Source of the DNA: a virus
Virus record (IMG/VR): IMGVR_UViG_3300005098_000032
Location: 1 to 30,700 of that record
DNA length: 30,700 bases
Direction: 5' to 3' (one strand)
Shown here piece by piece: positions 6,535 to 30,700 of this stretch; positions within the stretch are counted from its first letter, which is position 1, and every line of letters starts with the position of its first letter. Both the position numbers and the translations under genes were made by a program. The notes below the pieces were generated by a model that saw only the letters and a program-made list of their open reading frames with translations, was not told the DNA's origin and searched no databases.

Positions 6535-7019
6535 AAAGGGCCAAAAATGCCTCCGTTGGCTTTCGCCAAGCCCATCAGCATTTCCTTAAGGGTGTCGAGG
6601 TCCATTGAACGAACGAATTCGAGAGCATCCTTGTTGGTGTAGTTTTCAGGACGAAGATCTCTCAAGGAATCAAAAAGAAGTCTACCAATCACCATAGCGG
6701 TATCCTGATTGGTCAAAAGATCCATGAGCTTCCCCAGAGCCTCCTCGCGCCCTTTAGCGAGCTGTTCAGATAGCTTAGGGTCAATGGCCTGGATGCGGAT
6801 TTCCGACCGCTCACCGTCCTGAATTTGCTCCTGAGCCACGTCTTTCGACGAATCCCGAAACAAGACCGAAAGCGCCTTGGCAAGGGTTCCGGTCAAGGAA
6901 CGCAGGGAAAAAAGAGCGCCCATCGAGAGCGGATAAAAACGAAGAGTCTGTCCTTTGATTTCCTTTTCGTAAACGTCGCTCGGTTCGGAGAGAAATGCGA
7001 AAGAATCTTTCCAGCCCAT
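6145..7019 (-). CDS. Tail assembly chaperone GT, -1 frameshift fusion
   Basis: Predicted 291-residue product of ribosomal slippage at 6534-6540: residues 1-162 come from the G frame and 129 more from the -1 frame, ending at the stop at 6145. The -1 frame stays open from the slippery site, first as an Arg/Gly/Gln-rich linker of about 30 residues, then as a folded-looking domain with ENFWTELREAIIYLV and REHYELLQITLVG. Read alone, that domain has only a TTG at 6402 with no clear ribosome site, which argues for synthesis as a fusion. GT normally bridges the G-coated tape measure to the tail tube protein. The fusion is inferred from frame and motif; there is no direct evidence of the shift. Confidence 0.75.
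6447..7019 (-). CDS. Tail assembly chaperone, G-type (unshifted product)
   Basis: A 190-residue, mostly helical, acidic-tailed protein between the tail tube and tape measure genes, the invariant place for the G chaperone. It begins with a perfect GGAGG ribosome site 6 nt before ATG 7019. Size and composition fit the family: an N-terminal region with KEIKGQTLRFYPLSMGALF, a helical middle, and a Lys/Glu/Ala-rich C-terminus ending at residue 190. A slippery heptamer at codons 161-162 allows some ribosomes to shift to -1 and make the longer GT protein. In this family G and GT coat the tape measure and recruit tail tube subunits during assembly and do not end up in the virion. Assignment rests on gene order, size and the frameshift signal. 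Confidence 0.85.
   Translation of the reverse strand: MGWKDSFAFLSEPSDVYEKEIKGQTLRFYPLSMGALFSLRSLTGTLAKALSVLFRDSSKDVAQEQIQDGERSEIRIQAIDPKLSEQLAKGREEALGKLMDLLTNQDTAMVIGRLLFDSLRDLRPENYTNKDALEFVRSMDLDTLKEMLMGLAKANGGIFGPLVSGLPLMDGLNNLVTEEVKEDEEAPKAE
6534..6540 (-). promoter_or_regulatory. Programmed -1 frameshift slippery heptamer
   Basis: On the minus strand the heptamer CCCTTTA is in the correct phase (C CCT TTA) relative to the G reading frame. This is the canonical X XXY YYZ arrangement, at G codons 161-162. Slipping back one base re-pairs CCC and TTT and opens the 129-codon T frame. About 30 nt of GC-rich sequence follow that could form a stimulatory structure. Confidence 0.7.
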
Positions 7020-7061
7020 GTTTAACCTCCAGTTAAGATGTTTAGAAATGAAACAGTCAAG

Positions 7062-7085
7062 GCTCGGGGGAGAGGTCCCCCGAGC
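7062..7085 (-). terminator. GC-rich hairpin after the major tail gene
   Basis: A perfect 9-bp stem (GCTCGGGGG / CCCCCGAGC) with a 6-nt loop lies 32 nt downstream of the tail tube stop and 43 nt before the G chaperone. There is no long T-run on the minus strand, so it may be a weak terminator or an mRNA 3'-end stabiliser that lets tube protein be made in excess over downstream products. Confidence 0.6.
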
Positions 7086-7117
7086 TTTGATCTATTATAC
7101 ATCAAGCTGTTGGAGAA

Positions 7118-7981
7118 TTAAGCATTTTCATGAGTGATAATCGTAAAATAGGGGCTGTCAGGATCGGCCGTCGAAGCTTTCTGAACCACTCCCTTAAAGG
7201 AGAAAGTAGACCAATCATCTCCGATCAACGCCAAGTCACCATCAGCCTGGAGCCGAACAAGGTGAATCTGATATTCGACCTTCACCCCATTAGAGGCAGG
7301 ATTCTCAGCGATAAACTTCAAAGCGCCTTCGATACTGCTGAGACTCATGGCCTGCACCCGATCCAAATTAGCAGCAGCACTACCATTGGCCGCAATATCC
7401 AAATCGTAAGCAATACCAGAACTCGAACCGGTGATAGATCCCCCATCGATCACGAAAATTCGGCCCATCACGGAATCGACAGTATAATCCGTACCTTCCA
7501 CGAAAGCGGACCCACCGCCCGAGGGCTGAATCGTCACTGTACCGATGTCATAAATCCGATCTCCCTGAGGGTCGGTCGTAGGCCGCCCACTAGCATCGCT
7601 ATAGAGATCATACCAACGCCCCTGTTCATAGACAACAAAGTTATCACTACCAGTAAGAGCACTTCCACCAGCATTGGTCCTCTGATTCGCTTCACCACTC
7701 ATGAAGAGGGCAAGATTCTCGAAGTTTAACTCGTCCAGGGTAAAAGAGACTTCCCACTTCTCCGAGAGCGTCACCTCTTTATCGGTAACCTTCAGGCCGG
7801 TCCGAGAAGACTTGTGCTCCAACGTCTCCACCGTAGGAGTCAGTTTGAAGTCGGTGACGTTCCCCAGATCACGATAATCCATGGGAACCTGATTGGAATC
7901 CACAGGAGCAAAATAGAGAATTCCTCGACCCAAATTATAATCATTTACATTGTTCGTTCCAGCTTCATTAATACCAGGCAT
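7118..7981 (-). CDS. Major tail tube protein
   Basis: A 287-residue, beta-rich, acidic protein directly upstream of the tail chaperones, where the tail tube subunit is normally encoded. Residues 1-50 contain LGRGILYFAPVD and DLGNVTDFKLTPTVETLEH, a pattern common in phage tail tube proteins (an early strand, then an ETLEHKSS-type segment). The middle carries Gly/Ser/Thr-rich turns (SGGGSAFVEGTDYTVDSVMG) that may form a surface insertion. The ribosome site GGAGG lies 4 nt before ATG 7981. It polymerises into the hollow tail tube around the tape measure. The following hairpin at 7062-7085 suits a highly expressed gene. Assignment rests on composition, length and synteny. Confidence 0.83.
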   Translation of the reverse strand: MPGINEAGTNNVNDYNLGRGILYFAPVDSNQVPMDYRDLGNVTDFKLTPTVETLEHKSSRTGLKVTDKEVTLSEKWEVSFTLDELNFENLALFMSGEANQRTNAGGSALTGSDNFVVYEQGRWYDLYSDASGRPTTDPQGDRIYDIGTVTIQPSGGGSAFVEGTDYTVDSVMGRIFVIDGGSITGSSSGIAYDLDIAANGSAAANLDRVQAMSLSSIEGALKFIAENPASNGVKVEYQIHLVRLQADGDLALIGDDWSTFSFKGVVQKASTADPDSPYFTIITHENA

Positions 7982-7990
7982 GTTTCCTCC

Positions 7991-8431
7991 TTATACGGGA
8001 CCTAAAGTCGCATGAAAAGTTAAAGTTACTTGTGTTCCATTAGCCGGTTCTCTTTTAACCGGATGAGTATATTCTGAATCCACCAATTCCAAAGTTACTT
8101 GTTGTAGTTTATTTTCTTTATCGTAAGGCAAAATAATTGCTTGTTCGATCAATTCCTTTTCAAATGCCTCGACGATTACTTCTTTATCAAAAGCCAAATA
8201 CAATTGCCAGGTCCAGCCCGACCTTTCTCTTCGAGCATAACGCCGAAATTGCATTGGAATATCAAAACTCGCCGCAGTCTCATTCACCAGGACAGTTTTA
8301 GGAGCAACTCTATCGTCTTCATTCAAATCTCCCAACATTGTCCCATCGGACAAATAGCGCACTCGATAGAAGGATCCGCCTTTGCCCAATTGAAACAGTC
8401 TATTGTAGATGCGAGCTTTTTGTAGTTGCAT
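7991..8431 (-). CDS. Tail terminator / tail completion-like protein
   Basis: A 146-residue protein between the connector block and the tail tube gene, the usual place of the tail terminator (tail completion) protein that caps the tube and joins it to the head. It is alpha/beta, with RSGWTWQLYLAFDKEVIVEA in the middle and a strand-rich C-terminus ending HATLGPV. The start codon overlaps the stop of the upstream gene (TAATG), suggesting translational coupling; there is no strong ribosome site of its own. No catalytic motif is visible. Assignment is by position and fold-like composition; a minor capsid-tail joining role is an alternative. Confidence 0.6.
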   Translation of the reverse strand: MQLQKARIYNRLFQLGKGGSFYRVRYLSDGTMLGDLNEDDRVAPKTVLVNETAASFDIPMQFRRYARRERSGWTWQLYLAFDKEVIVEAFEKELIEQAIILPYDKENKLQQVTLELVDSEYTHPVKREPANGTQVTLTFHATLGPV

Positions 8432-8739
8432 TACTTGCGCTTCTTCCTGCGGGAAGTCTTAGGTTTTCTTGCCTCAGCTCGCTTTTTAAGTTCGGGAAAC
8501 TTACGATAAACTGCCCGCCTTACCCGAGCCTCCAGAGCAGGATCATTCTGCTGCGCTGCCCGAGCTAAAGCATTTCTAGCATGGGCCAAATCTGGAATTG
8601 GATAGCTCCCATGTCCAGGAGCTTTTGACGGAACAGCAAAATTTGAAGACTTGTTCTTCTTAGCTAAACGCTTTCTCTGTTCAGTACTTAAGTGTTTCTG
8701 CTTTGGAGCAGATTTCTTAGGCTTCTTCCGAGCTGCCAT
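8431..8739 (-). CDS. Small basic phage protein with DUF6582-like motif
   Basis: I place the start at ATG 8739 (102 residues) because GGAGG lies 9 nt upstream; ATG 8748 sits directly against that site and the longer reading is unlikely. Both ends are very basic (AARKKPKKSAPKQK at the start, SRRKKRK at the end). The middle holds YPIPDLAHARNALARAAQQ, matching a motif I know from phage head proteins of the DUF6582 type (Y-P-I-x-D-x-x-H-A-R-N-A-L-A-R). In other phages that module is often attached to capsid or protease proteins; here it stands alone among connector genes. DNA or head binding is plausible from the charge but unproven. Confidence 0.65.
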   Translation of the reverse strand: MAARKKPKKSAPKQKHLSTEQRKRLAKKNKSSNFAVPSKAPGHGSYPIPDLAHARNALARAAQQNDPALEARVRRAVYRKFPELKKRAEARKPKTSRRKKRK

Positions 8740-8740
8740 T

Positions 8741-9289
8741 TTATTCATCCTCCGAATTAAAAATACTAGTACCACTCCGACCTGGAGTAGTCTTCGGTTC
8801 AATTAAAGTAATATTCCAATTGGAAGTATTTTCCATTTCCTGTTCACCACTAAGCACACGAAGAGCGCTTTCTACCTGAGAAGCTAACTGTAATTTGAGC
8901 TGCTCCAACGCTGCTCGGTCACTCTTTCTGAAAGTGCCTTCCGTGTTCCAGGCTTCTCCTTCTTCTCCAGAAGAGTCTTCAAAAAGAATCGGCAACCTAT
9001 TCAGCAGCAACAATTTTACCCAACGGATTTCGGTAAGTTCTGCTAAATAGGCTTTATATTCAAGATCGGTGTTAGGATCTTCTACCAATTCCTGATTAGC
9101 ATATGTAGAAATCAAAGTTGCCCCTAAGCGGCGATAAAATCCAACTCTGCACTCCCGCACAGCTTGATTAATGAGCGCCTCAGCATCCGATTCTTCTGGA
9201 ACCCCAGAAAGACGAAGCTCTCGCTTTAATACTTCTAAAGCAGTTAATGGAGCCTCAGCTCGAACAAAAAGAGGTTTGAGTGCAACCAT
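8741..9289 (-). CDS. Head-tail connector (adaptor)-like protein
   Basis: A 182-residue, largely helical acidic protein located after the capsid genes and before the tail terminator-like gene, the usual place of the gp6/adaptor-type head-tail connector. Helices are evident at residues 15-50 (TALEVLKRELRLSG, EALINQAVRECRVGFYRRLG) and 75-110. The C-terminal 30 residues are polar and probably extended. The start has GAGGA 6 nt upstream and begins 1 nt after the preceding stop. Adaptors of this type form a 12-mer ring under the portal. The assignment is inference from position and helical character. Confidence 0.5.
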   Translation of the reverse strand: MVALKPLFVRAEAPLTALEVLKRELRLSGVPEESDAEALINQAVRECRVGFYRRLGATLISTYANQELVEDPNTDLEYKAYLAELTEIRWVKLLLLNRLPILFEDSSGEEGEAWNTEGTFRKSDRAALEQLKLQLASQVESALRVLSGEQEMENTSNWNITLIEPKTTPGRSGTSIFNSEDE

Positions 9290-9290
9290 A

Positions 9291-9635
9291 TTACATCCTC
9301 AAAAAGGCAATAGCCTCTTCCACGGTTTCAAAAGGTTCCATTTCTGGATCCTTTTCTTTGACCAAAAGATTTAATTCATCCAAACTTAACTTTTCATATT
9401 CTGGGGCTTTTACACCTTCTTCTTTTTCCATTTTCGATGATTTAAACCCAATTTTTTCATCTTCCACGGCTTCAACTTCTCCGACAGAAATGATTAAACC
9501 ATGGTCAAATAACCATTCAATCGACTCACGAGGAAGTCGCTCAAGAGCCTGAATAGGTACTTCAGCGCCAGGAAGAAACAGTCTACCTTTCAAACAAAGT
9601 GATCCCTTATCTTTGGCAACAAAATATCTTTCCAT
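9291..9635 (-). CDS. Small head protein with C-terminal HeH/LEM-like motif
   Basis: A 114-residue protein just downstream of the major capsid gene. I use ATG 9635 because CTGGAG lies 7 nt upstream; an ATG two codons earlier is too close to that site. The N-terminal half is beta-like (YFVAKDKGSLCLKGRLFLPG). The last 30 residues, LSLDELNLLVKEKDPEMEPF then TVEEAIAFL, resemble the short helix-extended-helix (HeH/LEM/SAP-like) motif often found at the ends of small phage head proteins. Function unknown; probably a minor head or head-completion factor. Confidence 0.5.
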   Translation of the reverse strand: MERYFVAKDKGSLCLKGRLFLPGAEVPIQALERLPRESIEWLFDHGLIISVGEVEAVEDEKIGFKSSKMEKEEGVKAPEYEKLSLDELNLLVKEKDPEMEPFETVEEAIAFLRM

Positions 9636-9660
9636 AATCATTCTCCAGTAAAGGGGGTTC

Positions 9661-9686
9661 GCCCGGTCCCGTTTTTGGGACCGGGC
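9661..9686 (-). terminator. Perfect 10-bp hairpin after the major capsid gene
   Basis: Perfect inverted repeat GCCCGGTCCC / GGGACCGGGC with a 6-nt A/C loop (minus strand), 17 nt downstream of the capsid stop. There is no T-run on the minus strand, so it may terminate weakly or protect the upstream capsid mRNA from 3' decay. Confidence 0.65.
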
Positions 9687-9702
9687 TTATGTTTAACCAT
9701 CC

Positions 9703-10749
9703 TTAGGACGCCACCTCCATGGAAACAGTGGAATCAGGAAGGATGGGGACACAAAGGGGTCTAGTGTGGACAAGAAGCTGCCGCACACTGGGATCCTTCT
9801 CCATCCAGCTCTTAGAAAACCGCTTCCCGACGAACTTCCTGCCTTCCAGGGCTTCAAAGTCAGGGATAGCGCCATACAGAGTCTCGAAACGGTTGCTGGG
9901 ACCCTCCACCACGAATTCAGCATACTTGGGGCGAATCAAGTCAACCGCAGAACCGTCTTCCTTGAGCACCTGACGAGAATACTCCCAAACACGAATTCCG
10001 CTGAACCGACCCAGATAAAGTGCGCCCTGCGCAGAGAAGTCTCCAACTCGGGTCACGTTACCGACTTCGTAATTTCGAGTATCCAGCATGCTCTGCACCT
10101 TAGGGTTAGCAAGAAAAGCCGCAGAAGCATCAGATCCAAGATAAACATCAGACAACACCAGGCCCGTATCCTTATTCACAAGCCTCTTTGCAGCGAGGAA
10201 ATCACTAGCCGGATCCCCACCCGAAGCATCCCACAGAGGCGAGGCAGTCACGCTATGACTAGCCTGGCGAGGGAAGGTGATCGTAAAGACTTCCTGGTCA
10301 CTCACGGAATACGTGATCTCGCCCCGGAGCGCCATAGCCGCCATCCACTCTTCACGATTCTCGATCAGGTCCATCAGGTGCTTTGCATCACGAGCAATAG
10401 CCTGCTGGATAGCCGAAAGCTGTTCTCCAGTAGACGGGAAGATGACCGTGCCAGGCTGCCGACCAAAGAAAAGTTCCGACGGCGTCATGGGGCGCTTGAT
10501 GCGAATATTGGGCATGGAAACCGTAGCGAATTTCTTTCCCAGACCCTCCACCATGACAGCCTCTCCGTTGACCCGCACCATGGGAGCCATCTTCCGCCCA
10601 CCGGTGAAGTATCCGATTTCAGCCGTTTCAGTAGAAAGAGTTCTTTCAGCCGCAAAAAGTCTATTTTTCAAAAAGCTCTGAGGCAGCTTGATCTCATTGA
10701 CCATCGCCGTCAGAGTCTGCCATTTAAGTTCATCAACAGAATATGCCAT
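9703..10749 (-). CDS. Major capsid protein (lambda gpE / phage_cap_E family)
   Basis: A 348-residue protein of the lambda E type. Family features in order: an N-terminal arm with FLKNRLFAAERTLSTE (about residues 26-41), IGYFTGGRKMAPMVRVNGEA (about 45-64), IRIKRPMTPSELFFGRQPG (about 82-100), and a C-terminal region with YGAIPDFEALEG, F-x-K-S-W and a run of Leu/Pro/Val near the end. Length matches the family (about 340-350). GGAGG lies 9 nt before ATG 10749. The gene follows the decoration protein gene, as D and E do in lambda. It forms the icosahedral shell with HK97 fold. A perfect hairpin follows the gene. Confidence 0.93.
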   Translation of the reverse strand: MAYSVDELKWQTLTAMVNEIKLPQSFLKNRLFAAERTLSTETAEIGYFTGGRKMAPMVRVNGEAVMVEGLGKKFATVSMPNIRIKRPMTPSELFFGRQPGTVIFPSTGEQLSAIQQAIARDAKHLMDLIENREEWMAAMALRGEITYSVSDQEVFTITFPRQASHSVTASPLWDASGGDPASDFLAAKRLVNKDTGLVLSDVYLGSDASAAFLANPKVQSMLDTRNYEVGNVTRVGDFSAQGALYLGRFSGIRVWEYSRQVLKEDGSAVDLIRPKYAEFVVEGPSNRFETLYGAIPDFEALEGRKFVGKRFSKSWMEKDPSVRQLLVHTRPLCVPILPDSTVSMEVAS

Positions 10750-15055: not shown

Positions 15056-15285
15056 TTTACATGCCTCCAAGGTTTTCTTAAACTGACCAAAGCCTTTGTT
15101 AGATCTAAAGAAGCCCTACGCATTGCTGCACGCTTAGAAGAAACAAAAATATAATGTGCCTGTTTTTGAGCTTCTTTGATTTCTTTTTTATAGGCTTTTA
15201 TTTTCTTTAGAAACCTATTTGTCTCATCAATTATTTCTTGTAAATGATTTATCTCTTGCTGAAATTCTTCACGAATTGACATCAT
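15052..15285 (-). CDS. Small basic coiled-coil protein, unknown function
   Basis: A 77-residue protein from the paired ATG codons at 15285/15282, with AGGAGG about 7 nt upstream. Residues 5-50 form a predicted coiled coil (REEFQQEINHLQEIIDETNR), followed by a Lys/Arg-rich tail. It overlaps the polymerase stop by ATGA and the next gene by 4 bp, so it is translationally coupled between the polymerase and nucleotide hydrolase genes. I do not recognise the family. A role with polymerase or DNA is suggested only by position and charge. Confidence 0.65.
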   Translation of the reverse strand: MMSIREEFQQEINHLQEIIDETNRFLKKIKAYKKEIKEAQKQAHYIFVSSKRAAMRRASLDLTKALVSLRKPWRHVK

Positions 15286-17309
15286 TTTTCTTCCTCCTCT
15301 TCCGGTTCCCAAACTTCTAACTTGCCACTCTTAAGTCGAATGGTTTCAGCCCGCTTGTCCCATCGGCGCATCAGAGCAGGCTGGGCTTTGACAGGAATTT
15401 TTGACATTACCATCTGCATTCCTTCACGCCAAAGTTTAGCGGCCTCGTCCGCTACTTCAGTCATGTATTTGTTTTCCACAATCTCTAAAATAATTTCATC
15501 GTGGATAAACGCCAGAGGCCAAGCTTGATTGTACAGAATAGAATTTTGAGTCCAATCATAGCAAGCTCGCACTAACTTGAAAATAGCAATCTTTGCCCCT
15601 TCTGCAGTACGAGACTGCAACCCCACGCCATTCGCCGCCGCACAATAGGAAGCTCCCGCTCGAGTCATCCCCAAAATGGTTTTATACGAAAATTCATCAT
15701 TGATATCTCCAAGCTGATTAATGTATTGAAAATAATCTTGCATTTCAGGGAAGGTCATAAACCAGAGATCTTTTAAAGTACGAGCTTCATCTTCTGTTAC
15801 TACAACACCATAAGTTGCTTTTGCAAACTTCACCATCGTAGCGGCTCCCAGACCGCCAGGATAGCCTAGTCCAACGGGCTTAGCAAACTTTCTCCAATGC
15901 TTGTAGAATTTTCGCTCATCCTCATCGTCACTATGCTTCAATGCAACAAAAATTGCATACAATTCTTCAGAATCTTTATCCGCATATTTCTTTTTGAAAT
16001 TTTCATCAAGATGAACAGCAAGATGCGCCCCCAAATAAGCGTGTGGATCTTTTCCCTGTTGTAGCAATTCTGCTAATTTTGAACGTCCAAAAAGATCCAA
16101 CAATGTTTGAGCCAAACTTACTAACTCTATAGCATCGTAATCAATTGAAACCAGAACCTTACCTTCCCGAGGAAGAAAGAGGTGGCGGGCCCGTGGATCT
16201 ATTTGTTGAATATTAGTAGATGGATAGAGCTTGCCTCCGTAACTAGAAGTCCGACCGGTCTCCTTCAATACATCATACTCTGGGAAGACTTCCGGTGCAT
16301 CCAATTTTGGAAGTTCAGTAGTAATCAGACGATTCACTTTCTGCCGGTCTTGATATTGCTTCAAGACGGGAGAAAAGTCGGCCAATTCTCTGAGCATCTG
16401 CGCATCAGCAGAAACAGCTCCTTTATCTGTATACCGCAGTTCAACTCCATTGGCTTCCGCCACCTCTTTCACAATTTCAATCAATCGCTTTTTATTAATA
16501 GAAGCAGGCTTCGGTTTAGTGAATTTATTCGGATGGGTTTTGTAAGGACGCGCAGGCACCGGCGGACGAAGAACGCCTTCCTCCACAAGCAAGGACAATT
16601 TTTCCGGGGCTATTTCTTTCTTAAGTTCTTCAAGGAGTTTTTCTACCCCTTCTTGATCTATTCTAAACCCTCGATCCGTCAGGTATTTCAAACAAAAATC
16701 AGCCGCCGTATGGAAGAATTCAGTTTTCAATGAGCCCGCATTCTGGACCCGTTCTGCTTGATTCTCGTAGATATAATAAGTATATTTGGCGTCATTGATT
16801 GCATAACGTCGAGCATCTTCCGGATATTGGTCAGCAGAAAGTTCAGAAAGAAGATGATAATTTAATCTCCAAGTTTCTTCTCCTGATTTCTCTTCATCCA
16901 AGTTATCTCCTAGATGGTGTTTTACTAACTCCGCCAAATGATACTTCAGAGGTTTAGTGTCACCGTTGGGCAATACTATTTCGTCCATCCGCCCTGTAGT
17001 AGAAAGATTGAGAAGTTTCTCTCGGATTCTAGTGTCGGTAATTCGTCCATCTTCAAGGGCTTGCCAAATCAAGGGCTCCAAAGCAGGAAAAGTATTTTTC
17101 AAGCAATGAAGATCATAACCTACATTATGTCCAACAAGAGTAATTTGATCATTGGCTAACCAAGAACGAAAAACTTCCTTCATGATCGACGGAGTAGCAT
17201 CGGTCCAAATATGTTCTTGTCCTTCATAGTAAGCCGTTAGACAAACTACTTTAGGGAACCGAGCTTCCGCGCCAATCGGAAATGTTTCTGTATCAAAAGC
17301 CAAGATCAT
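15282..17309 (-). CDS. Family A DNA polymerase with 3'-5' exonuclease
   Basis: A 675-residue replicative PolA-type polymerase. The exonuclease domain (about residues 1-200) has Exo I FDTET (Asp6, Glu8), Exo II GHNVGYD (Asp66) and Exo III YAIND (Tyr169, Asp173), all intact, so proofreading is expected. The polymerase domain has TGRTSS (351-356) and NIQQI (366-370), motif A SIDYDAIEL (Asp390), motif B RKFAKPVGLGYPGG (473-486) and motif C FIHDE (His603, Asp604, Glu605). Motif B has Gly at the usual Asn and a YPGG ending, a subtype seen in several phage polymerases. There is no 5'-3' exonuclease domain. It is next to the FmdB-like gene and the MazZ-like gene, so it works with a dedicated nucleotide-pool enzyme. 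Confidence 0.95.
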   Translation of the reverse strand: MILAFDTETFPIGAEARFPKVVCLTAYYEGQEHIWTDATPSIMKEVFRSWLANDQITLVGHNVGYDLHCLKNTFPALEPLIWQALEDGRITDTRIREKLLNLSTTGRMDEIVLPNGDTKPLKYHLAELVKHHLGDNLDEEKSGEETWRLNYHLLSELSADQYPEDARRYAINDAKYTYYIYENQAERVQNAGSLKTEFFHTAADFCLKYLTDRGFRIDQEGVEKLLEELKKEIAPEKLSLLVEEGVLRPPVPARPYKTHPNKFTKPKPASINKKRLIEIVKEVAEANGVELRYTDKGAVSADAQMLRELADFSPVLKQYQDRQKVNRLITTELPKLDAPEVFPEYDVLKETGRTSSYGGKLYPSTNIQQIDPRARHLFLPREGKVLVSIDYDAIELVSLAQTLLDLFGRSKLAELLQQGKDPHAYLGAHLAVHLDENFKKKYADKDSEELYAIFVALKHSDDEDERKFYKHWRKFAKPVGLGYPGGLGAATMVKFAKATYGVVVTEDEARTLKDLWFMTFPEMQDYFQYINQLGDINDEFSYKTILGMTRAGASYCAAANGVGLQSRTAEGAKIAIFKLVRACYDWTQNSILYNQAWPLAFIHDEIILEIVENKYMTEVADEAAKLWREGMQMVMSKIPVKAQPALMRRWDKRAETIRLKSGKLEVWEPEEEEEK

Positions 17310-18217: not shown

Positions 18218-20299
18218 CTATACGCCCTTTCCTGGAGATTGTGCTAAAAAATCTTGAAATTTTCCAAATCTCTGTTGCATGAAGTGCCTGTCTCGTTGTG
18301 AGAGATCCCGGTTCTGCATCCCGTGTTCCTGGAGGAAATCTGGAGAATAGATCTTAGGCAAGGGAGCATAGCTCCCAAAAACCAATTTCTGTCGATTACC
18401 CGTCGTTTGATGGATGTAGAGCGCATCCGTCAAACAGGCTGCAAACATAATATGGTCGAAGAGAAGAGTCCGATTCATCTCCACCACTAAGGTATCGGCT
18501 TTCTGTCCCTGGCGGTGAGTCCGTCCGAGAACCTGCTCCGCCACCTTGGCCGAGCGAGGCCACTGAAGGAAGTATTGCTCTTGGAAGGCTTGCAGATTCT
18601 TGCCCTCTCCATGGGCAGAGATGCTCGCTACGATGAGGCGACCTTGGTTTTTGGGATTTAGGATTACCCGGTTTCCATGCGCCCCTGCGGGGGCGTAGAG
18701 CGGCTCTAGGCCCGCTTCTCGCATAGCCTCGACCAACCAGCGGCCCATCTCCTGATGGTAGATCCAGAGCAAAGCCCCGCCCTTCACCTGTTGCGCCCAC
18801 CGAATCGCCTCCTGAATCTTGAAATCATCTATTCGAACCTGGGACTGGTCCCGCTCGGGTCGTCCCTCAAAGTCCAGGCTTTTCACCTTTCTCCATAAAT
18901 TAGCCAAGGTCGAACCTACACGACGCCCCCCATTCTTGGAAATCTCCAGGCCCACCAACATTGGAGTATCTGCTTCCGGATGAGGATTTTTTAGATACTC
19001 TCGAAGTTCCGCCGCATATTCTTGGGTAGCGGCATGGTGCTCCTTCGCTCGTTCTAAAATGCTTTTCGCTTCAGGCAAACTAATCTTTTTTCGTTCTGCC
19101 AGAGCTTCTTCACTCGGCCAGATTAACTGATTGTAAAAACCCGAGGACAACTCATAAAGCCACTTAAATTTATGAATTCCAAAATCAATTTCGTCCCCGT
19201 TTGGAGTCTTCCAATCTTCTTCCACCTTTTTGATCAGCTCCATCAACGGCTCTCCCGGCTGTGGTGCTGGTTTATTGTGGAAAATTAAACTAGTTCCAAT
19301 TCCGGATTCAAAAGAGGCCACGACTCCTGGAGCAGAATGTAAACGTTGTTTAAAACTTTTTCGCATTCCGGCAACCGTGAAAGGAAATGGTTCTGTTGGA
19401 AAATTTCGTTGCGCCCATTTTCTAAGTGGTTGCAAAATCTTTAATTGATTTTCTGACGGCTGGACTTCGGTATCTAGTATTCCTGCCCAGTCCTGAGCCA
19501 TGGCAATAATACGAGGAACTGGAGAGTGCTCATCCAAAGCATATCGAATTAAATGTTGATAATCCATAATGCTTTTTGAAGTGATCGTACCGGAGAGAGC
19601 CGCTAAAAGGGGCTGTTTATTTGTAATGTAATCCATCAATCGCCGTGTCCGTGCCGCTCTTCTATTTTTAATCCGATGCACTTCATCACAAATAATTAAC
19701 TCTGGTTCAATTGTGTTGAGGAGAAAAGAGGTGTCGGTGGTGGAAAGATAGCTGTACGGCATGATGTAGCAACCCACCCTTTTTGCCGAAACAATTGCCT
19801 TACGTCGAATTTTTGATTTCCCTCCCAAAAAATAAAAAGGTATCGATAGACTGAGGTTCCACCGTGCCATCGGAATATCTACTTTTATCAATTGTTCATA
19901 AACTTGAGACGGAACGATAAGAAGTGATCTGGAAATGTCATTATGATAAGCCCAGTCTGCGATCTTTAACGTAATCAGCGTCTTTCCACCACCGACAGAA
20001 ATTGGAGCAAATAATCCTCCATATTTAATAAAACTATTGATAGCTTCTACCTGAACATTAAACAAACGGAAACCTTCTCGATATGCCCTAGCATCTACCC
20101 ATTGATAATTAAGTCTTTCAATTTCTTTCTTTGATAATTTTTCTATCAAAGGAAGATCACAAATACGCGCCATTTCACTCTTGTGCGAGTCCACCCTAGT
20201 GGATTTTCTCGACTGGAGCTTCTCCGTCAAAGGGACAATCTTCGATTCCAATTGTTCCTTTTGTTGGAGTCTGGCGCGTATTTTATCCGAAAGACCCAT
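18218..20299 (-). CDS. SNF2-type (SF2) DNA helicase/ATPase
   Basis: A 693-residue superfamily 2 helicase of the SNF2-like type. Motifs seen: Walker A GGGKT (103-107, in PISVGGGKTLITLKIAD), Walker B DEVH (205-208), motif III LSGT (235-238), and motif VI QVLGRTHRQGQ (about 589-599), the RTHRQGQ form typical of SNF2. The long stretch between (about 300-500) is the usual insertion. Phage SNF2-like enzymes are thought to remodel or unwind DNA during replication or recombination. The gene starts by TAATG overlap with the upstream nuclease gene and is followed by the possible ssDNA-binding gene. Composition is mixed: residues beyond about 460 are encoded by GC-richer DNA. Confidence 0.9.
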   Translation of the reverse strand: MGLSDKIRARLQQKEQLESKIVPLTEKLQSRKSTRVDSHKSEMARICDLPLIEKLSKKEIERLNYQWVDARAYREGFRLFNVQVEAINSFIKYGGLFAPISVGGGKTLITLKIADWAYHNDISRSLLIVPSQVYEQLIKVDIPMARWNLSLSIPFYFLGGKSKIRRKAIVSAKRVGCYIMPYSYLSTTDTSFLLNTIEPELIICDEVHRIKNRRAARTRRLMDYITNKQPLLAALSGTITSKSIMDYQHLIRYALDEHSPVPRIIAMAQDWAGILDTEVQPSENQLKILQPLRKWAQRNFPTEPFPFTVAGMRKSFKQRLHSAPGVVASFESGIGTSLIFHNKPAPQPGEPLMELIKKVEEDWKTPNGDEIDFGIHKFKWLYELSSGFYNQLIWPSEEALAERKKISLPEAKSILERAKEHHAATQEYAAELREYLKNPHPEADTPMLVGLEISKNGGRRVGSTLANLWRKVKSLDFEGRPERDQSQVRIDDFKIQEAIRWAQQVKGGALLWIYHQEMGRWLVEAMREAGLEPLYAPAGAHGNRVILNPKNQGRLIVASISAHGEGKNLQAFQEQYFLQWPRSAKVAEQVLGRTHRQGQKADTLVVEMNRTLLFDHIMFAACLTDALYIHQTTGNRQKLVFGSYAPLPKIYSPDFLQEHGMQNRDLSQRDRHFMQQRFGKFQDFLAQSPGKGV

Positions 20300-20988
20300 T
20301 AGTTCTGAAGCGCCTCCACGACAACTTTAGCCCGACTACGAAGGAAAGCGAGGACGGCCTTCTGAAGAGGAGTATTCTCTCGCCCAATTAAATGGGTAGG
20401 AATCTCATACATATCTCTTCGCAAAGCATTAATGACCAGTTCTCGCTTCTGATAAAAATCTAAAGCCTTAAATTTTTCTTCATTTTCCGCTTTGGCGTCC
20501 ATCATGATCTCTTCGATCAAAACATCCAACATCTCCCCTTTCTTACCTTTTGTGGGGACGCAATTGATATAAAGCGTAAATTTGTTGGACTCTTTCTTTT
20601 CCTTCTTTTCCTTAGAAGCAGTCTCCTCCTTGCGGGGCCTACCTCGTCCTCTCTTCTTCGGAGGAGTCGGAGCTTCAGTCGGTTTTTCATAATTGGTAAC
20701 CTGCGGCGCATCGGCTTTCGGCTGAGGGGGAGAAGGGGGAGAAGACGGAGGAGTGGCCTTACCCCGAATCTTGTAAACCTGCTGACAAATGCGGCAAGGC
20801 TTTCCCTTAGAATTATATCCAGTCCCCTCACAAGCTTTACAACCCGGCTGAGCCCACTCCGGCGGAGCCTGCGGCGTTGGCGCTTCTCCCTGCTGGGCCG
20901 GAACCTCCGGAGTCGCTGTTTCAGCTTCTTCCTTAACTTCGGCATCCTTAACTTCATTGTCCTTTTTGATCTTGTCGAAAATACCCAT
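20299..20988 (-). CDS. Internal in-frame gene: zinc-ribbon, AT-hook protein
   Basis: Within the nuclease gene, ATG 20988 is preceded at 8 nt by a perfect GGAGG. It would encode a 229-residue protein beginning MGIFDKIKKDN, like the start of the 17635-18165 protein. It contains CKACEG and CRIC (a zinc-ribbon-like pair), Pro-rich linkers, the AT-hook motif GRGRPR and a globular C-terminal domain starting NKFTLYINCVPTKGKKG. AT-hooks bind the minor groove of AT-rich DNA, which fits this genome. It may be a former separate gene that lost its upstream stop, or a nested gene with internal initiation. Confidence 0.5.
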   Translation of the reverse strand: MGIFDKIKKDNEVKDAEVKEEAETATPEVPAQQGEAPTPQAPPEWAQPGCKACEGTGYNSKGKPCRICQQVYKIRGKATPPSSPPSPPQPKADAPQVTNYEKPTEAPTPPKKRGRGRPRKEETASKEKKEKKESNKFTLYINCVPTKGKKGEMLDVLIEEIMMDAKAENEEKFKALDFYQKRELVINALRRDMYEIPTHLIGRENTPLQKAVLAFLRSRAKVVVEALQN

Positions 20989-21855
20989 TTTCTTGGCCTC
21001 CATTTGTTCTAGAATTTTTTTACCCATCCGCTCTAACCGAACCTTACATCCTTCAAAAGTTTCTGATCCAGCACAAAGTCGCTGAAATGCGCATCCTCCA
21101 TAAGCATTACAGAGCGCTCCGGTACGAGGGATCTCTTCCCAGGTCTTCTTTTCTACTTTAATTTGTTTTTCTACTTCTAACATCTGTTTTACAATTGGAA
21201 TAATTTCATCTTGCCAAAATGCTTCAACTTCATCTCTTGGTACTAGCACCGAACGCTCAAAGACTTCTGGGTTTTTGTGGTCTTTTATGAAGTAGTTATG
21301 TTTCAATCTTACATAATCTAGTCCAGGTACCTCATCGATCAAATACTTAGCGTAACTCATCATTTGAATGTCTTTTCGCAAAGCTGCTTCAGAAAGAGCA
21401 TAACGTTTTTTGGATGAAGTTTTGTGGTCCTCCACAATTCCAAATTTATAATTGAGATTGTCTACCTTGCCCACCATTTCAACTCCAGGAATAACTTGCA
21501 TTTTAATCCAAGTCTCAATCATACGTCCCGGAGTGCGCTTAATTATGCCTTGGCTCACCGCCTTGGTAAAGAGCGTCCGCACTAATTCTTGATCCGCCGC
21601 ATCCATGGCAAAGAAAGTACCTCGCTCTTCCCAGACCCACCACTTTCCAGCAAAAGGATCGACAGGATTTCCCGCATTATCCCGCCCATTATCATTAGCT
21701 TTCAACCAACGTTCCATAATGCGGTGGAGAATACTTCCCCAAGCGAAGGCATCGCCCATAGGCAAGGACAAGCCCCAAATTCGTTCGAGAGCCCATTTTC
21801 TAGGACACGCAAAAGCCTTAATTTGTGTTGCTGATATTCTCATTGGTTTTTCCAT
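20299..21855 (-). CDS. Cas4/AddB-like Fe-S PD-(D/E)XK nuclease fused to AT-hook protein
   Basis: A 518-residue protein in two parts. Residues 1-289 are a RecB/Cas4-type nuclease: SATQIKAFACPRKW, His44, Asp132 (GKVDNL), motif EDHKTS with Asp143-x-Lys145, and Gln164. One N-terminal cysteine (Cys17) and three later ones (Cys249, Cys255, Cys261) match the spacing of a 4Fe-4S cluster as in Cas4/AddB. Residues 290-518 hold a zinc-ribbon-like CxxC pair (339/342, 354/357), a Pro-rich linker, an AT-hook (GRGRPR, 403-408) and an unknown domain. Methionine 290 begins MGIFDKI and has its own GGAGG ribosome site, so two products are likely. It overlaps the helicase start by 1 nt. Likely role: end processing in recombination. 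Confidence 0.85.
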   Translation of the reverse strand: MEKPMRISATQIKAFACPRKWALERIWGLSLPMGDAFAWGSILHRIMERWLKANDNGRDNAGNPVDPFAGKWWVWEERGTFFAMDAADQELVRTLFTKAVSQGIIKRTPGRMIETWIKMQVIPGVEMVGKVDNLNYKFGIVEDHKTSSKKRYALSEAALRKDIQMMSYAKYLIDEVPGLDYVRLKHNYFIKDHKNPEVFERSVLVPRDEVEAFWQDEIIPIVKQMLEVEKQIKVEKKTWEEIPRTGALCNAYGGCAFQRLCAGSETFEGCKVRLERMGKKILEQMEAKKMGIFDKIKKDNEVKDAEVKEEAETATPEVPAQQGEAPTPQAPPEWAQPGCKACEGTGYNSKGKPCRICQQVYKIRGKATPPSSPPSPPQPKADAPQVTNYEKPTEAPTPPKKRGRGRPRKEETASKEKKEKKESNKFTLYINCVPTKGKKGEMLDVLIEEIMMDAKAENEEKFKALDFYQKRELVINALRRDMYEIPTHLIGRENTPLQKAVLAFLRSRAKVVVEALQN

Positions 21856-22228: not shown

Positions 22229-22298
22229 CTATTCCTCTTTATTTGTTTTCTCTCGGTCTTCAAAGATTTTCCAAATTTTATCTACATCTATACCTTCA
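22229..22298 (-). other. Probable frameshifted 3' end of the primase-helicase gene
   Basis: The primase-helicase frame stops at 22296, but the +1 frame stays open across the following 67 nt to a TAG at 22229-22231, just before the next ATG at 22226. It reads as a plausible acidic/basic C-terminus (GIDVDKIWKIFEDREKTNKE). No start codon exists in this stretch, so it is better explained as a continuation of the upstream gene after a one-base indel or a +1 shift. Confidence 0.5.
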
Positions 22299-24734
22299 TT
22301 TCGAGCATATTTCTTTTAATGCTTTTGAAATTTGTCTTAAATTAGACCATCTTCGACCATATTTAGTTTTTGTAAAATATTCATCTAATACTGTTACAGT
22401 TAAACAAATTGTAGAATTAGCAAATTTAATTTTTGGATGTCCAGTTTTTGCATAAAATTGTAAAGCATCCATTACAGCCAAAACAAATTCTTCATTATTA
22501 CCGACCTCTTCCTCCAAAAACTCTTCTTGCAATTCCATCATTTGTTCTGGAATTTCAACTTGAAATCTCTTGTCTTTTACGTAATCCACTGAATCTGCAA
22601 GGTACTGTAAATGCTTGGCTAAAATCTTTTTATCAATCCAATCTTGAGTTAATTTCCAATGACCCCGTTCCTCTAAAAATTTAAAAGCCTCATCAGAAAT
22701 AGTAATGATCAAGAAACGATCATTAATGGCTTTGCGGTTATTTTTTCTCAAACGCGAAGATTCGAACAACCCCTCCAGAACTTCCTCTGGTTCATTTGCA
22801 CAGATAACAATTCGTGCAAGACACGTCAAACTGAATTGCATTCCATATTTTTCATTGCCCAAGATTGGCGTCCCGGACAATAGACTTTTAAATCTTTTTG
22901 CGTATTCCCCCGTGCGGTTGATGCTTTTGGATAGTCCTTCTTCCAGCACTACATAAGCGGTATTCCTAAGTTGTCCAGTCCAGTCCTTCAACACGCTTTC
23001 ATCGGCAAAAATTCCAAATCCCAAATATTGACCAATAGCCCGAGCAAGCATAGATTTACCCGCGCTGGAAGCTCCCAACAATGCAAGAGCAGAGAGCGGA
23101 TGATCAAAACGTTTAGCCCCTTTTAACCACTGACAAAATGATTTCCATAAAAGAGGGGGAATAAAAGTCCTTAACCATCTATCAACATCTTGATTGTATT
23201 CCGCAGGTAGATCAGGTTCTCTATCTGGAGGAATCGAAAGAATATATCCTCCTTCTTTGATCTCAAGTTGACAAGTTGGAATAGTAGAATTAACTCGAAA
23301 TTCTAAAAGAATCTTTCCATGTTGAATATAAATATCCTCAAGAGAAACTGGAACTTCTTTCTCTCCTACAGGTTTTGTAAATTCAACAAAACGAGCTGTC
23401 CCCATGGCAAGTAATTGATTACGAATTTGAATTTTAGAAAATTTGAAAACCGGAGCTGTATACTGCCCTGTTTCAGCATGTAAAAAAGAAACTCTATCAC
23501 TGGCAGAATGCAAAAGCATTAGATGGCTCAAGATCCATTCCTTCTTTTCTCCCAGGCTTTTGGTAGTAAATTCCGGCAAAGTATTCCACTTCTCCACCCT
23601 GTGCACTAATTGGGTCAAATAATCTTCTTCTTCCTCTTGAGTCTTTTTTACTCTCGCCGCTTCACGTTTCCAAGCGAATTTGATCAAATCCCACAATAAT
23701 TCCGGAGGATCCTTTTCAAATCCCTGAATTCGCATTGCTTTTGTCAAATGATAAAGAAGTGCATAAGCAAGCTGTGGAGTAGCCTCATCCGGAAACCACG
23801 CCATCAGATATCCCACCAGCATTCCCGTGGCTCGTTTCAAGAAAGGATATCTTTTTCCCACTACGGGAAGTGAAGCCTTGTGCCGCCCACGAATATGCCC
23901 GTAATAAAGGTAGGGGAAAATTGATTGGCCTTTAAATTTAGAAATAATTTTTACTACTTCTGGATGGATCAATCCATCTTGATTTGTAAGTGTGCGAAAG
24001 ACTTCCTCTTCGGTGGGCTGAGGATCTTCTATTTCTTCAATCTCTAGATCCTCTTCTTTTTGGCCCTTATTTTTCAAGGAAAATTTACCGAGGAAATTAT
24101 TGCAGACCTTTTTCAAGTCTTCTAAATTCAAAGTCTCGCCCGGCCCCAGTAACAGCGACCAGTCCTCTTTCCAAGTCTGCATCCCGTTGTCGCGGGTCAC
24201 GAAGGGCAAGCGATAGCACCGAGTCCAGTCCGCGCAGGAAAGATCCAGGTGAAGGTCCGTCAGAGCCGCAGAAACCGGCTCCAGAGCCACGAGAAAAGCT
24301 TGAAGGTACATTTCCCATTCGTCAACTGGAAGTGGTTTCTGGAGGCTCCAAACGGCTCGAAAACCGTGGAGAGTAGAATAGACCCAAGTAGGGTCAGGAA
24401 TTTGCGCCAGTTGAAGAGCCAGAGAAAAATCAGACAAAACGCTTTCTACTTCGTGTAAGTGTTCCCACTTTTTGTGGTTCTTTAGGTCAAAATCAATAAG
24501 GAAATCTTGAGCGAGAAAATTATCCGCCTTTTTACGAACCGTAGAAAGAAACTTCTTTTGAGCGGGGATACAATATTCTTCATCACTTTCCACGAAGTAC
24601 GGAAAGAAATGGGCATCAAAATCCCAATGCTTCTTTACGGCCTCTTCGAAAAGAGTCCTAGAATAAAGTCGTACCCGTGAGCCAATCTCCTCCAAGGAGC
24701 CCGCTCTGGGAATGTTGCGTTTTGCTACAAACAT
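22296..24734 (-). CDS. PrimPol-type primase fused to SF3 helicase
   Basis: An 812-residue replication initiator/helicase. The N-terminal half shows primase-polymerase (AEP-like) motifs: FLIDFD (Asp81, Asp83), YSTLHGFRAVW (Ser120-x2-His123) and CADWTRCYRLPFV (Asp169, with Arg172/Arg175). The C-terminal half is an SF3/D5-type helicase: Walker A GASSAGKS (554-561), Walker B YVVLEE (594-599), and sensor IVICANEP (about 642-649). Such fusions prime and unwind DNA at phage origins. ATG 24734 has only a weak ribosome site; no better start was found. The apparent stop lies inside coding-like sequence, so the true C-terminus may be about 22 residues longer. Composition varies, with a GC-rich block around 24120-24260. 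Confidence 0.87.
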   Translation of the reverse strand: MFVAKRNIPRAGSLEEIGSRVRLYSRTLFEEAVKKHWDFDAHFFPYFVESDEEYCIPAQKKFLSTVRKKADNFLAQDFLIDFDLKNHKKWEHLHEVESVLSDFSLALQLAQIPDPTWVYSTLHGFRAVWSLQKPLPVDEWEMYLQAFLVALEPVSAALTDLHLDLSCADWTRCYRLPFVTRDNGMQTWKEDWSLLLGPGETLNLEDLKKVCNNFLGKFSLKNKGQKEEDLEIEEIEDPQPTEEEVFRTLTNQDGLIHPEVVKIISKFKGQSIFPYLYYGHIRGRHKASLPVVGKRYPFLKRATGMLVGYLMAWFPDEATPQLAYALLYHLTKAMRIQGFEKDPPELLWDLIKFAWKREAARVKKTQEEEEDYLTQLVHRVEKWNTLPEFTTKSLGEKKEWILSHLMLLHSASDRVSFLHAETGQYTAPVFKFSKIQIRNQLLAMGTARFVEFTKPVGEKEVPVSLEDIYIQHGKILLEFRVNSTIPTCQLEIKEGGYILSIPPDREPDLPAEYNQDVDRWLRTFIPPLLWKSFCQWLKGAKRFDHPLSALALLGASSAGKSMLARAIGQYLGFGIFADESVLKDWTGQLRNTAYVVLEEGLSKSINRTGEYAKRFKSLLSGTPILGNEKYGMQFSLTCLARIVICANEPEEVLEGLFESSRLRKNNRKAINDRFLIITISDEAFKFLEERGHWKLTQDWIDKKILAKHLQYLADSVDYVKDKRFQVEIPEQMMELQEEFLEEEVGNNEEFVLAVMDALQFYAKTGHPKIKFANSTICLTVTVLDEYFTKTKYGRRWSNLRQISKALKEICSK

Positions 24735-29174: not shown

Positions 29175-29468
29175 TTATTTTTTCGAGTTGGTCCCCGGGT
29201 TGAGAAGCCGATGGTAAGCGAGGACGCCTTTGTAGAAAGACCATAGGGCTCCAAAACTTCCTTCGTGGGCCCCGTAATGCGAGGAGTCGTCGCTCCGGGC
29301 CGACCAAAGGAGCTTCTCCGCTCCTGACGGCCCTTCGAGAACGGAGTATTGTAACTCCCCTTCGCAAAGGAGGGTAATGCAGAAGGAAAAATTTTTGCCC
29401 GTAACTTTGTTGACGAATCTTTCGAGTCGCAAAAGATCGCCCATGTTTTTTGAATGAAAACTATTCAT
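29175..29468 (-). CDS. Hypothetical small early protein
   Basis: 97 residues. The start overlaps the previous stop by ATGA, and the ribosome site GGAGGTGA is embedded in the end of that gene 4 nt upstream. It has a helical start, a strand-rich middle (NFSFCITLLCEGELQYSVLE) and a C-terminal helix (ALWSFYKGVLAYHRLL). The final helix with an internal Gly fits the loose pattern of the 28887 protein. Function unknown. Confidence 0.6.
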   Translation of the reverse strand: MNSFHSKNMGDLLRLERFVNKVTGKNFSFCITLLCEGELQYSVLEGPSGAEKLLWSARSDDSSHYGAHEGSFGALWSFYKGVLAYHRLLNPGTNSKK

Positions 29469-29845
29469 TTGGTCACCTCCTCAAAGACCTCTAGGAGGCC
29501 CTGGAACGAGACCCGAGGAGCTATGGGCCTAGGGTCGCCCTGGGCCGGGATCGTCGCTTGTAGGGTCGTTTTTGCCAGCCTGACGGCCTCCGGGGAGGGA
29601 GGAGCTTCCTGCAGGGCCGTTCGGAGGGTCTCCAAGGCGTCCGGGACCTGGTCCAGGAGCACGGCAAGAAGCGCCCAAGGATCGAGGGAGGGCTTTCGGA
29701 AGGAAGGGGAGCCGACCTGGAGGTGACCTCGGATGGTGACCGTCGCATCGACAGGGTAGGTCTTATCGTGCGCCGGAGCCTGGGACGGCTTGAACCGGCT
29801 CAGGCACTTCGAAAGGGCCAGTTTCACGGTGTCGGTCTTGTTCAT
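29465..29845 (-). CDS. First gene of the early operon, conserved phage protein of unknown function
   Basis: 126 residues, GC-rich. ATG 29845 follows AGGAG at 8 nt and a strong promoter at 29913-29941. The middle reads VDATVTIRGHLQVG, then LDPWALLAVLLDQVPDALET, resembling a small phage protein type I recall with a strand-forming N-terminus and a P-W-x-L-L-A-V-A-L-type helix. A Pro-rich linker and an amphipathic C-terminal helix (FQGLLEVFEEVTK) follow. It is the first gene of the leftward early operon, so it is probably expressed immediately after infection. No function is known to me. Confidence 0.6.
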   Translation of the reverse strand: MNKTDTVKLALSKCLSRFKPSQAPAHDKTYPVDATVTIRGHLQVGSPSFRKPSLDPWALLAVLLDQVPDALETLRTALQEAPPSPEAVRLAKTTLQATIPAQGDPRPIAPRVSFQGLLEVFEEVTK

Positions 29846-29912
29846 GGTTCAGTCTCCTGAATGGTTGGGCCGCTGGGCGGTGGCCGGGGCGGCGGTTTCG
29901 TTCGACACCTAT

Positions 29913-29941
29913 AGCTTAGAGGGGGATGGGCCCGGTGTCAA
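29913..29941 (-). promoter_or_regulatory. Sigma70-type early promoter
   Basis: On the minus strand a perfect TTGACA (29936-29941), a 17-nt spacer and TAAGCT (29913-29918) form a credible promoter about 70 nt upstream of the first early gene. It is the best promoter I found in the window and would drive the leftward early operon. Start site near 29906 is inferred. Confidence 0.7.
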
Positions 29942-30218
29942 GGAGGAGAAGGGATTTTTTTATTTTTGGTGGTCCAAAATAATGCAAAATCTATTTATTT
30001 TGATTTTTCGAAGTGGAAGGGGGTCTGAACCGCTCGGAAATCGAACACTTTTTTGTAAGTGAGGGCTGGAAAGGGCCCAAAATCGGGCCGAGACGCTTCC
30101 CGGCATGACGGATGGTGTCACAGTTTAAGTCCTTGAAAAGAAAGGGGTTAGGACTGGAAGAGGCCCGATTTTTCTTGTAAAAAGGGGGGTATTGAGGCCC
30201 CTATATTTCCCTTAGAGA

Positions 30219-30243
30219 ACCCCCTCATCTATTTGAAGGGGGT
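30219..30243. repeat. Short hairpin ACCCCC / GGGGGT
   Basis: A perfect 6-bp stem with a 13-nt loop just left of the AT-rich core. No T-run immediately follows on either strand. Confidence 0.4.
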
Positions 30244-30267
30244 ATAGAAAGAATTATTTTATATAAG

Positions 30268-30291
30268 AACCGTCAAGCGTCCAAACCGTCA
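30268..30291 (+). repeat. Direct repeat AACCGTCA, two copies 16 bp apart
   Basis: Copies at 30268-30275 and 30284-30291. The second continues into CA, so it carries the reverse-strand form of the TGTGAC motif found nearby. Confidence 0.45.
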
Positions 30292-30296
30292 CAGTA

Positions 30297-30328
30297 TAAT
30301 ATAAATAATTCTAAAATAATATAAATAA
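30297..30328 (+). repeat. Direct repeat TAATATAAATAA, two copies 20 bp apart
   Basis: Identical 12-mers at 30297-30308 and 30317-30328 in pure A/T sequence, about two helical turns apart. It could be an easily melted element. Confidence 0.5.
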
Positions 30329-30362
30329 ATTATTTTTTCTGAAGTTTTTTAATTTTTTTAAG

Positions 30363-30392
30363 TGTGACAGATATGTGACGAATGTTGTGACA
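30363..30392 (+). repeat. Three phased TGTGACR iteron-like repeats
   Basis: TGTGACA at 30363, TGTGACG at 30374 and TGTGACA at 30386, spaced 11 and 12 bp, so all face roughly the same side of the helix. AAGTGT and ACACTT bracket the array (30360-30365 and 30390-30395). Reverse-orientation copies TGTCACA (30116) and CGTCACA (30287) lie nearby. Confidence 0.6.
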
Positions 30393-30534
30393 CTTCTGAT
30401 AACTTTTTACGCTCTTGAATAAAAATAATTCATTTTTGATTTTTTTGAAGTCCAAAAATCATTTTGATTTTTTCGAATTTTTTAATTTATTTTTATTTAT
30501 TTTTGAATATTTTTAATGAAAAAACTAACAAAAG

Positions 30535-30600
30535 CCGAACAAGTCCACTTTTTAGCCAAAAATTAAGGAAAAAATTACAAAATTCTTACAACTTGTTCGG
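30535..30600. repeat. Long inverted repeat CCGAACAAGT / ACTTGTTCGG
   Basis: Perfect 10-bp arms at 30535-30544 and 30591-30600 enclose a 46-nt AT-rich loop. It may be a binding-site pair or a cruciform-forming element at the edge of the AT-rich region. Confidence 0.5.
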
Positions 30601-30604
30601 GCCC

Positions 30605-30700
30605 AGTCCCTAACTGTGCGATATCGCACACTCGGTCGAGTCGGGTTGGGGCGAGTTGCGGCACCCCTGAAGTCCTCGGCGAGTCCCTGGACGAGTCCCT
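30605..30700 (+). repeat. Repeated AGTCCCT motif reaching the right edge
   Basis: AGTCCCT at 30605, and GAGTCCCT at 30681 and 30693 (12 bp apart). The last copy ends at the edge, so the array may continue outside the window. Related GAGTC/GAGTT motifs lie between. Confidence 0.4.
30615..30630. promoter_or_regulatory. Perfect 16-bp palindrome, operator-like
   Basis: TGTGCGATATCGCACA is a perfect palindrome with no spacer, typical of a site for a dimeric DNA-binding protein. The sequence changes abruptly here from AT-rich to GC-rich. Confidence 0.5.

Follow-up and report, generated by a model that had tools for sequence, protein, structure and literature searches.

A phased TGTGACR repeat array beside AT-rich DNA as a candidate iteron-type replication origin of an uncultured tailed phage

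The intergenic region at the head of the leftward operon of IMGVR_UViG_3300005098_000032, a tailed phage whose IMG/VR contig measures 30,700 bp (the whole stretch analysed here, hereafter the window), contains an array of TGTGACR repeats which probably forms the core of an iteron-type replication origin. This core would comprise positions 30287-30392, perhaps starting already at 30116, and would be opened by the primase-helicase of the phage. The repeats, their helical phasing, the exact bracketing of an AT-rich segment, the replication genes that follow and the tendency of similar arrays to lie near genes for a primase or helicase were all observed and support this reading. From these features we infer which protein binds the repeats, that the AT-rich segment melts and that replication starts there. 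The initial annotation had proposed either an iteron origin or a cooperative repressor array; the origin half of this proposal is strengthened by the bracketed, melting-prone segment, by the position at the operon head and by the arrays found elsewhere beside primase and helicase genes.

The window encodes portal, S78-type protease and tape-measure proteins, followed by PolA, a DEAD/SNF2 helicase, a PD-(D/E)XK exonuclease and a DUF5906 protein, and most of its large genes run leftward, starting from 29845. A second contig (G001, 41,984 bp) was 99.8% identical to the window across 6-22315 and 97.8% across 22298-22664, and contributed 19.2 kb of further sequence on the left. These 19.2 kb and the window were combined in a composite of 49.9 kb, which represents the known part of an incomplete phage genome. 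The right end of G001 falls inside the primase-helicase gene and this contig is therefore uninformative on the array; TGTGACR was absent from both strands of its 41,984 bp. Genes for a 5'-deoxynucleotidase-like protein, a trypsin-like protease and an RNA ligase were noticed left of the window at L124 (G001) 3419-10190. Comparison of the window with known phages at the DNA level gave no match, the Rfam search of the window was equally without match, no tRNA was found in it, and a protein search for a host or prophage in genome_contigs returned nothing. GC skew, proposed earlier as a check of the origin, had negative values over the leftward genes and positive ones beyond ~29 kb to the right, with a turn at ~29.0-29.5 kb, a change of sign which may reflect the coding strand alone. 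The skew was positive at both ends of the composite, and ORFs of the opposite direction occur at the far left end of G001.

Three direct copies of the repeat are located on the plus strand at 30363-30369 (TGTGACA), 30374-30380 (TGTGACG) and 30386-30392 (TGTGACA), with steps of 11 and 12 bp. Two inverted copies lie on the minus strand, one (TGTGACG, 30287-30293) on the far side of the AT-rich segment from the triple, and an outlying one (TGTGACA, 30116-30122) which has GTCACAGTWTAA in common with it. The triple is enclosed by an outer dyad (30360-30395) made of AAGTGTGACA and TGTGACACTT, nine of whose ten positions are complementary. The initial annotation had described the phased triple, both inverted copies and an AAGTGT/ACACTT dyad, and all were recovered at their coordinates. 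The AT repeats spaced by 20 bp which it had mentioned are also present (30298 and 30318, 86% alike); being almost pure A/T, they are weak evidence if taken alone.

The number of copies is modest in itself, with six TGTGACR in the whole window compared to a shuffle mean of 2.83, and 10 of 100 shuffles reached six. Five of the six copies are found within 30116-30392, the sixth (26634, minus strand) being located inside an ORF. By a Poisson score of hexamer counts per 350 bp, which is a cruder measure, TGTGAC came no higher than fourth in the composite (log10 p -6.1), so that the strength of the cluster lies in phasing and position, not in copy number. Among all 6-mers with at least three G/C, the TGTGAC copies at 30363, 30374 and 30386 form the only phased triple (9-13 bp) in the 49.9-kb composite, and shuffling 29846-30700 by dinucleotides 3000 times never produced one.

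The inverted copy at 30287-30293 on one side and the direct triple on the other exactly bracket a segment of 69 bp with 91% A+T (30294-30362), the probable DNA unwinding element. Its limits match to within 1-2 bases the least stable 60-bp and 70-bp stretches of the composite, which start at 30295 and 30293, respectively; at the 100-bp scale, the stretch from 30418 is the least stable and the one from 30295 comes second. A second, lesser AT-rich stretch occurs around 22.3 kb, at the 3' end of the primase gene, where no repeat array was found. The two sets of putative iterons are unequal: three copies lie right of the segment, against a single adjoining copy and another one 171 bp beyond it on the left. 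The whole array belongs to the intergenic region 29846-30700, which is situated upstream of the leftward operon and ends at the contig end. This region is devoid of DnaA boxes (TTATNCACA or TTWTNCACA), which does not fit a DnaA-dependent iteron plasmid origin.

The first ORF of the leftward operon (29465-29845, minus strand, 126 aa) has no family match in PHROGs or Pfam, and its start codon is 518 bp away from the triple. The region of this ORF has ~60% G+C, compared to 44% for the composite. Further along the operon, and on the same strand, are encoded a primase-helicase of 812 aa (22296-24734), a PD-(D/E)XK exonuclease (20299-21855), a DEAD/SNF2-type helicase (18218-20299) and a family A DNA polymerase (PolA, 15282-17309). 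The array thus heads an operon encoding both PolA and a primase-helicase of the P4/D5-like DUF5906 type, the latter being the putative initiator. Its DUF5906 match (552-652) reached 33.9 bits for a cut-off of 27.6, and the P-loop GASSAGKS, N647 and R673 were recognised as conserved residues, while Pfam gave no assignment for the N-terminus. Structure prediction of this protein yielded a pLDDT of 47, from which no DNA-binding domain could be derived, and was not used.

In the proposed mechanism, the TGTGACR copies would act as iterons. The three direct copies, presented on one face of the helix, would load the primase-helicase, or a partner protein, beside the AT-rich segment, with the inverted copy positioned on the opposite side of it from the loading triple. 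The bound hexamer or hexamers would then melt the segment and prime, and the phage polymerase would extend. The main departure from the iteron-origin model is the distance of 5.6 kb between the array and the primase-helicase gene, whereas the two are adjacent in most array-bearing DUF5906 loci, in phage S1 and in Cch2.

The array was taken as an origin opened by the primase-helicase because Cch2 and P4 alpha bind direct or origin repeats. According to PMC7581432, Cch2, the D5-type helicase of SCCmec, binds a 23-bp stretch of direct repeats in which only three iterons were found, and AAGTG is required for its unwinding. In that system three short direct repeats are sufficient for binding, and the first copy of the triple in the window reads AAGTGTGACA. 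The word and the spacing are different, however, the Cch2 site lies directly downstream of cch2, and binding, predicted for the window, was demonstrated for Cch2. P4 alpha, a multifunctional primase-helicase, binds origin repeats by a winged-helix domain (PMC4234260). It possesses a Toprim primase, and the N-terminus of the window protein was left without assignment by Pfam. TGTGAC is not known as the iteron word of P4.

In the origins of PICI and SaPI, as presented in PMC6092414 and PMC7581432, short iterons flank an AT-rich stretch in a replicon with a primase and a rep helicase. The window resembles them in its primase/helicase replicon, and may also do so in having short iterons on both sides of such a stretch. 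It differs in that their origin is placed after the rep gene, while the array heads the operon 5.6 kb off, in that its left set consists of one adjoining and one outlying copy, and in that the repeats belong to a full phage which encodes a PolA of its own. A replicon with an archaeo-eukaryotic primase and an SF3 helicase is likewise shared with pRN1 and BIP-1, where PMC4234260 describes a stem-loop origin. Such an origin of the pRN1 type was rejected here, as the folding of 30280-30400 was no stronger than that of shuffled sequence (z -0.29) and no stem-loop is present. Passages of PMC7145576 and PMC11447400 deal with other initiators. Altogether, the array in the window is probably a new example of an already known origin type.

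Protein searches revealed few relatives of the phage, and none in genome_contigs. G010 was the only distant relative seen to span the operon head (47% identity for the helicase, 27% for the primase-helicase), and apart from G001 the searches yielded no closer one. It shows at this place a gap of 796 bp (16308-17103) which is AT-rich at its start and then GC-rich, and no TGTGAC pair was detected in this nearest outgroup; position and composition of the intergenic block may thus be kept while the word is not. A lack of conservation of the repeats had been named in the initial annotation as speaking against its proposal, and this applies in part: the AT-rich block of G010 lies at the same place without a TGTGAC pair, and G001 stops short of the array. 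MW202816 is related to the window by PolA, helicase and exonuclease at ~23-25% identity, and a repeat-rich gap separates its two gene arms. BLASTP found no similarity between its replicative helicase and the primase-helicase of the window.

Similar arrays were searched in other viral contigs with a pattern of three TGTGAC copies separated by 3-7 bp, giving at least 120 viral loci, and with the same word read backwards (CAGTGT) as a control, giving at least 120 loci as well. Arrays without a covering ORF of at least 100 aa were defined as noncoding, which applied to 64 of the 120 listed TGTGAC loci and to 31 of the 120 listed control loci. Noncoding two-way arrays, i.e. with at least two inverted copies within 400 bp, were found in 26 of the 120 TGTGAC loci listed versus 2 of the 120 control loci listed (Fisher p 8e-7 among these loci). 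In 14 of these 26 two-way arrays, a primase or replicative-helicase family was present among the nearest ORFs: DUF5906 (L035, L041, L073, L074, L087, L090, L104 and L117, with L059 below cut-off), DUF3987 (L027, L111), Prim-Pol (L043), a DnaG-like protein (L044) and RepB_primase (L053). Among the 31 noncoding control loci, three had such neighbours (L322, L319 and L239), the control being entered as 4/31 in the Fisher test on these neighbours. The CAGTGT arrays of L319 and L322 lie beside Prim-Pol/DUF3987 and DUF5906 genes, an indication that the rule holds for arrays beyond those of TGTGAC.

DUF5906 was sought by itself in 99 distinct loci of the 120 TGTGAC loci listed and in 50 of the 120 control loci listed. 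It was present in 15 of the former, within ~1 kb of the array in 12 of them (distances worked out by hand), and in 5 of the latter, near the array in one; L041, which Pfam finds, was missed by this search. Six of the primase or helicase proteins encoded beside such arrays were aligned with the primase-helicase of the window and were only 13-18% identical to it. The order of copies in the window, i.e. inverted, then a gap (72 or 92 bp in these loci), then three direct ones, is repeated in L073 and L111. The arrays of L073, L104, L087, L111 and Stenotrophomonas phage Bhz60 share with the window the TGTGAC word, steps of 9-12 bp and both orientations, but mostly have more copies and are adjacent to the gene. 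Over the 64 noncoding loci listed, 187 of the 240 same-direction steps of 7-30 bp measured 9-12 bp, a dominance partly built in by the scan pattern. The base following TGTGAC was A in 57% of 221 distinct copies, and in three of five in the window. The least stable 60-mer was located within 300 bp of the array in 14 of 31 control loci and 20 of 64 TGTGAC loci; since control arrays show it as often, AT-richness beside arrays was rejected as general evidence and considered solely with regard to the exact bracketing of the segment in the window.

Phages were also chosen by protein, as 16 named phages out of 562 records matching the L087 primase. TGTGAC pairs occurred in only one of them (Bhz60), and TGTGAC as a general word of DUF5906 phages was therefore rejected; a search over 23 records gave four matches for the reversed control word and one for TGTGAC. 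Hexamer clusters were ranked in 14 of the 16 phages, leaving out Vibrio phage QH and Bordetella phage FP1, with at most 0.3 kb missing from the end of S1 and K292, and with LKO4 and R18 limited to 60 kb. In six of these 14 (S1, Mcat4, MA12, Bhz60, FoX2 and PCA1), the strongest cluster of the genome lies at most 1.2 kb from the primase, for ~1.4 expected (p 0.0013, the 1.2-kb limit having been chosen after viewing the list). The cluster words are TGTGCG in S1, CAGGGT in Mcat4, TTAGGG in MA12 and GTGACA in Bhz60, the clusters of FoX2 and PCA1 being weaker. Dense two-way arrays were seen beside the primase genes of Stenotrophomonas phage S1 (L170 2471-2733), Moraxella phage Mcat4 (L171 5060) and Pectobacterium phage MA12 (L179 3999). 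From the six phages and their differing words it follows that arrays beside such primase genes are common and that the words depend on the lineage.

To our knowledge, the replication origins of most phages are not known. As a tentative extension, TGTGAC may be an origin word widely shared by unrelated phages with very different primase-helicases of the DUF5906, DUF3987, Prim-Pol, RepB and DnaG types; it would then be shared across initiator families by convergence or origin exchange, and origins of uncultured phages could be found from sequence alone. In that case, these phages would have in common a 6-bp iteron used in steps of 9-12 bp and in both orientations. Full-text searches of open-licence papers found nothing relevant on TGTGAC as an iteron or phage origin word, which may nevertheless have been described. 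If the origin reading of the window is right, an uncultured phage now has an origin open to testing, and others could be sought by a simple rule, namely a helically phased array of short repeats in both orientations next to a gene for a primase or helicase. One could then also ask how the word is selected by a small domain linked to the helicase, as TGTGAC, TGTGCG and CAGGGT seem to serve in phages whose primases are related.

The main rival to the origin is an operator array to which a phage or host regulator would bind cooperatively, thereby controlling the leftward operon; we consider this unlikely. The repeats are upstream of the operon, and the promoter-like sites recognised at 30256-30343 on the minus strand share sequence with the AT-rich segment and adjoin the 30287 copy, while a 16-bp palindrome at 30615 shows that other operators may exist. 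However, 518 bp separate the triple from the first start codon, and TGTGAC arrays elsewhere accompany primase or helicase genes. No HTH_3 domain was detected in G000 or G001, which together lack part of the genome, and none of the ten small ORFs tried gave a Pfam match near the cut-off. A dual role, in which the initiator would bind the repeats to start replication and at the same time repress its own operon, appears less likely still. The array does head the operon of the putative initiator and the 30287 copy abuts the promoter-like site 30283-30256, but the promoters were called by consensus matching only, with 5 found for 1.2 expected.

The families of neighbouring proteins bear on two further explanations. 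Neighbours were scanned at 56 of the 64 noncoding TGTGAC loci, those with at least four copies in ±400 bp, taking the nearest two ORFs per side where these had at least 150 aa (102 proteins, plus two added by hand from L094 and L095), and at all 31 noncoding control loci (43 proteins); individual scans of large neighbours comprised 20 proteins from TGTGAC loci and 10 from the control. The arm sites recognised by tyrosine recombinases have a layout like that of the array, with helically spaced direct copies and inverted copies on the other arm. An attP with arm-type integrase sites would agree with this layout, with the ORF of L107 directly beside its array, which carries an integrase-like motif (by regular expression only), and with the integrase of L097 at ~390 bp from the array. 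It is nonetheless very improbable: Phage_integrase had no match in G000 or G001 (~50 kb of an incomplete genome) and was as rare beside TGTGAC arrays (3 of 104 proteins) as in the control (2 of 43). Just as improbable is a pac site for packaging, to which the small terminase subunit would bind. Terminase_2 was the commonest family beside TGTGAC arrays (10 of 104 proteins), but it was equally frequent in the control (4 of 43) and absent from G000 and G001, and the large-terminase gene, at L124 (G001) 5407-6846, lies past the end of the window opposite to the array. Finally, a chance cluster in AT-rich DNA, as the fourth rank by copy number might suggest, is hardly credible when none of the 3000 shuffles produced a phased triple.

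Other repeats were observed in the same intergenic region as the candidate origin. AGTCC occurs six times in 30450-30700, the last three copies being phased by 11-12 bp near the contig end, and these 12-bp steps could also be a coding repeat. An inverted repeat of 10 nt, CCGAACAAGT and ACTTGTTCGG, occupies 30535-30544 and 30591-30600, with the arms 46 nt apart. The perfect 16-bp palindrome at 30615-30630, TGTGCGATATCGCACA, is the longest found in the 49.9-kb composite, and an inverted repeat with GATATC, as present in the window, was seen at the corresponding place within the 796-bp gap of G010.
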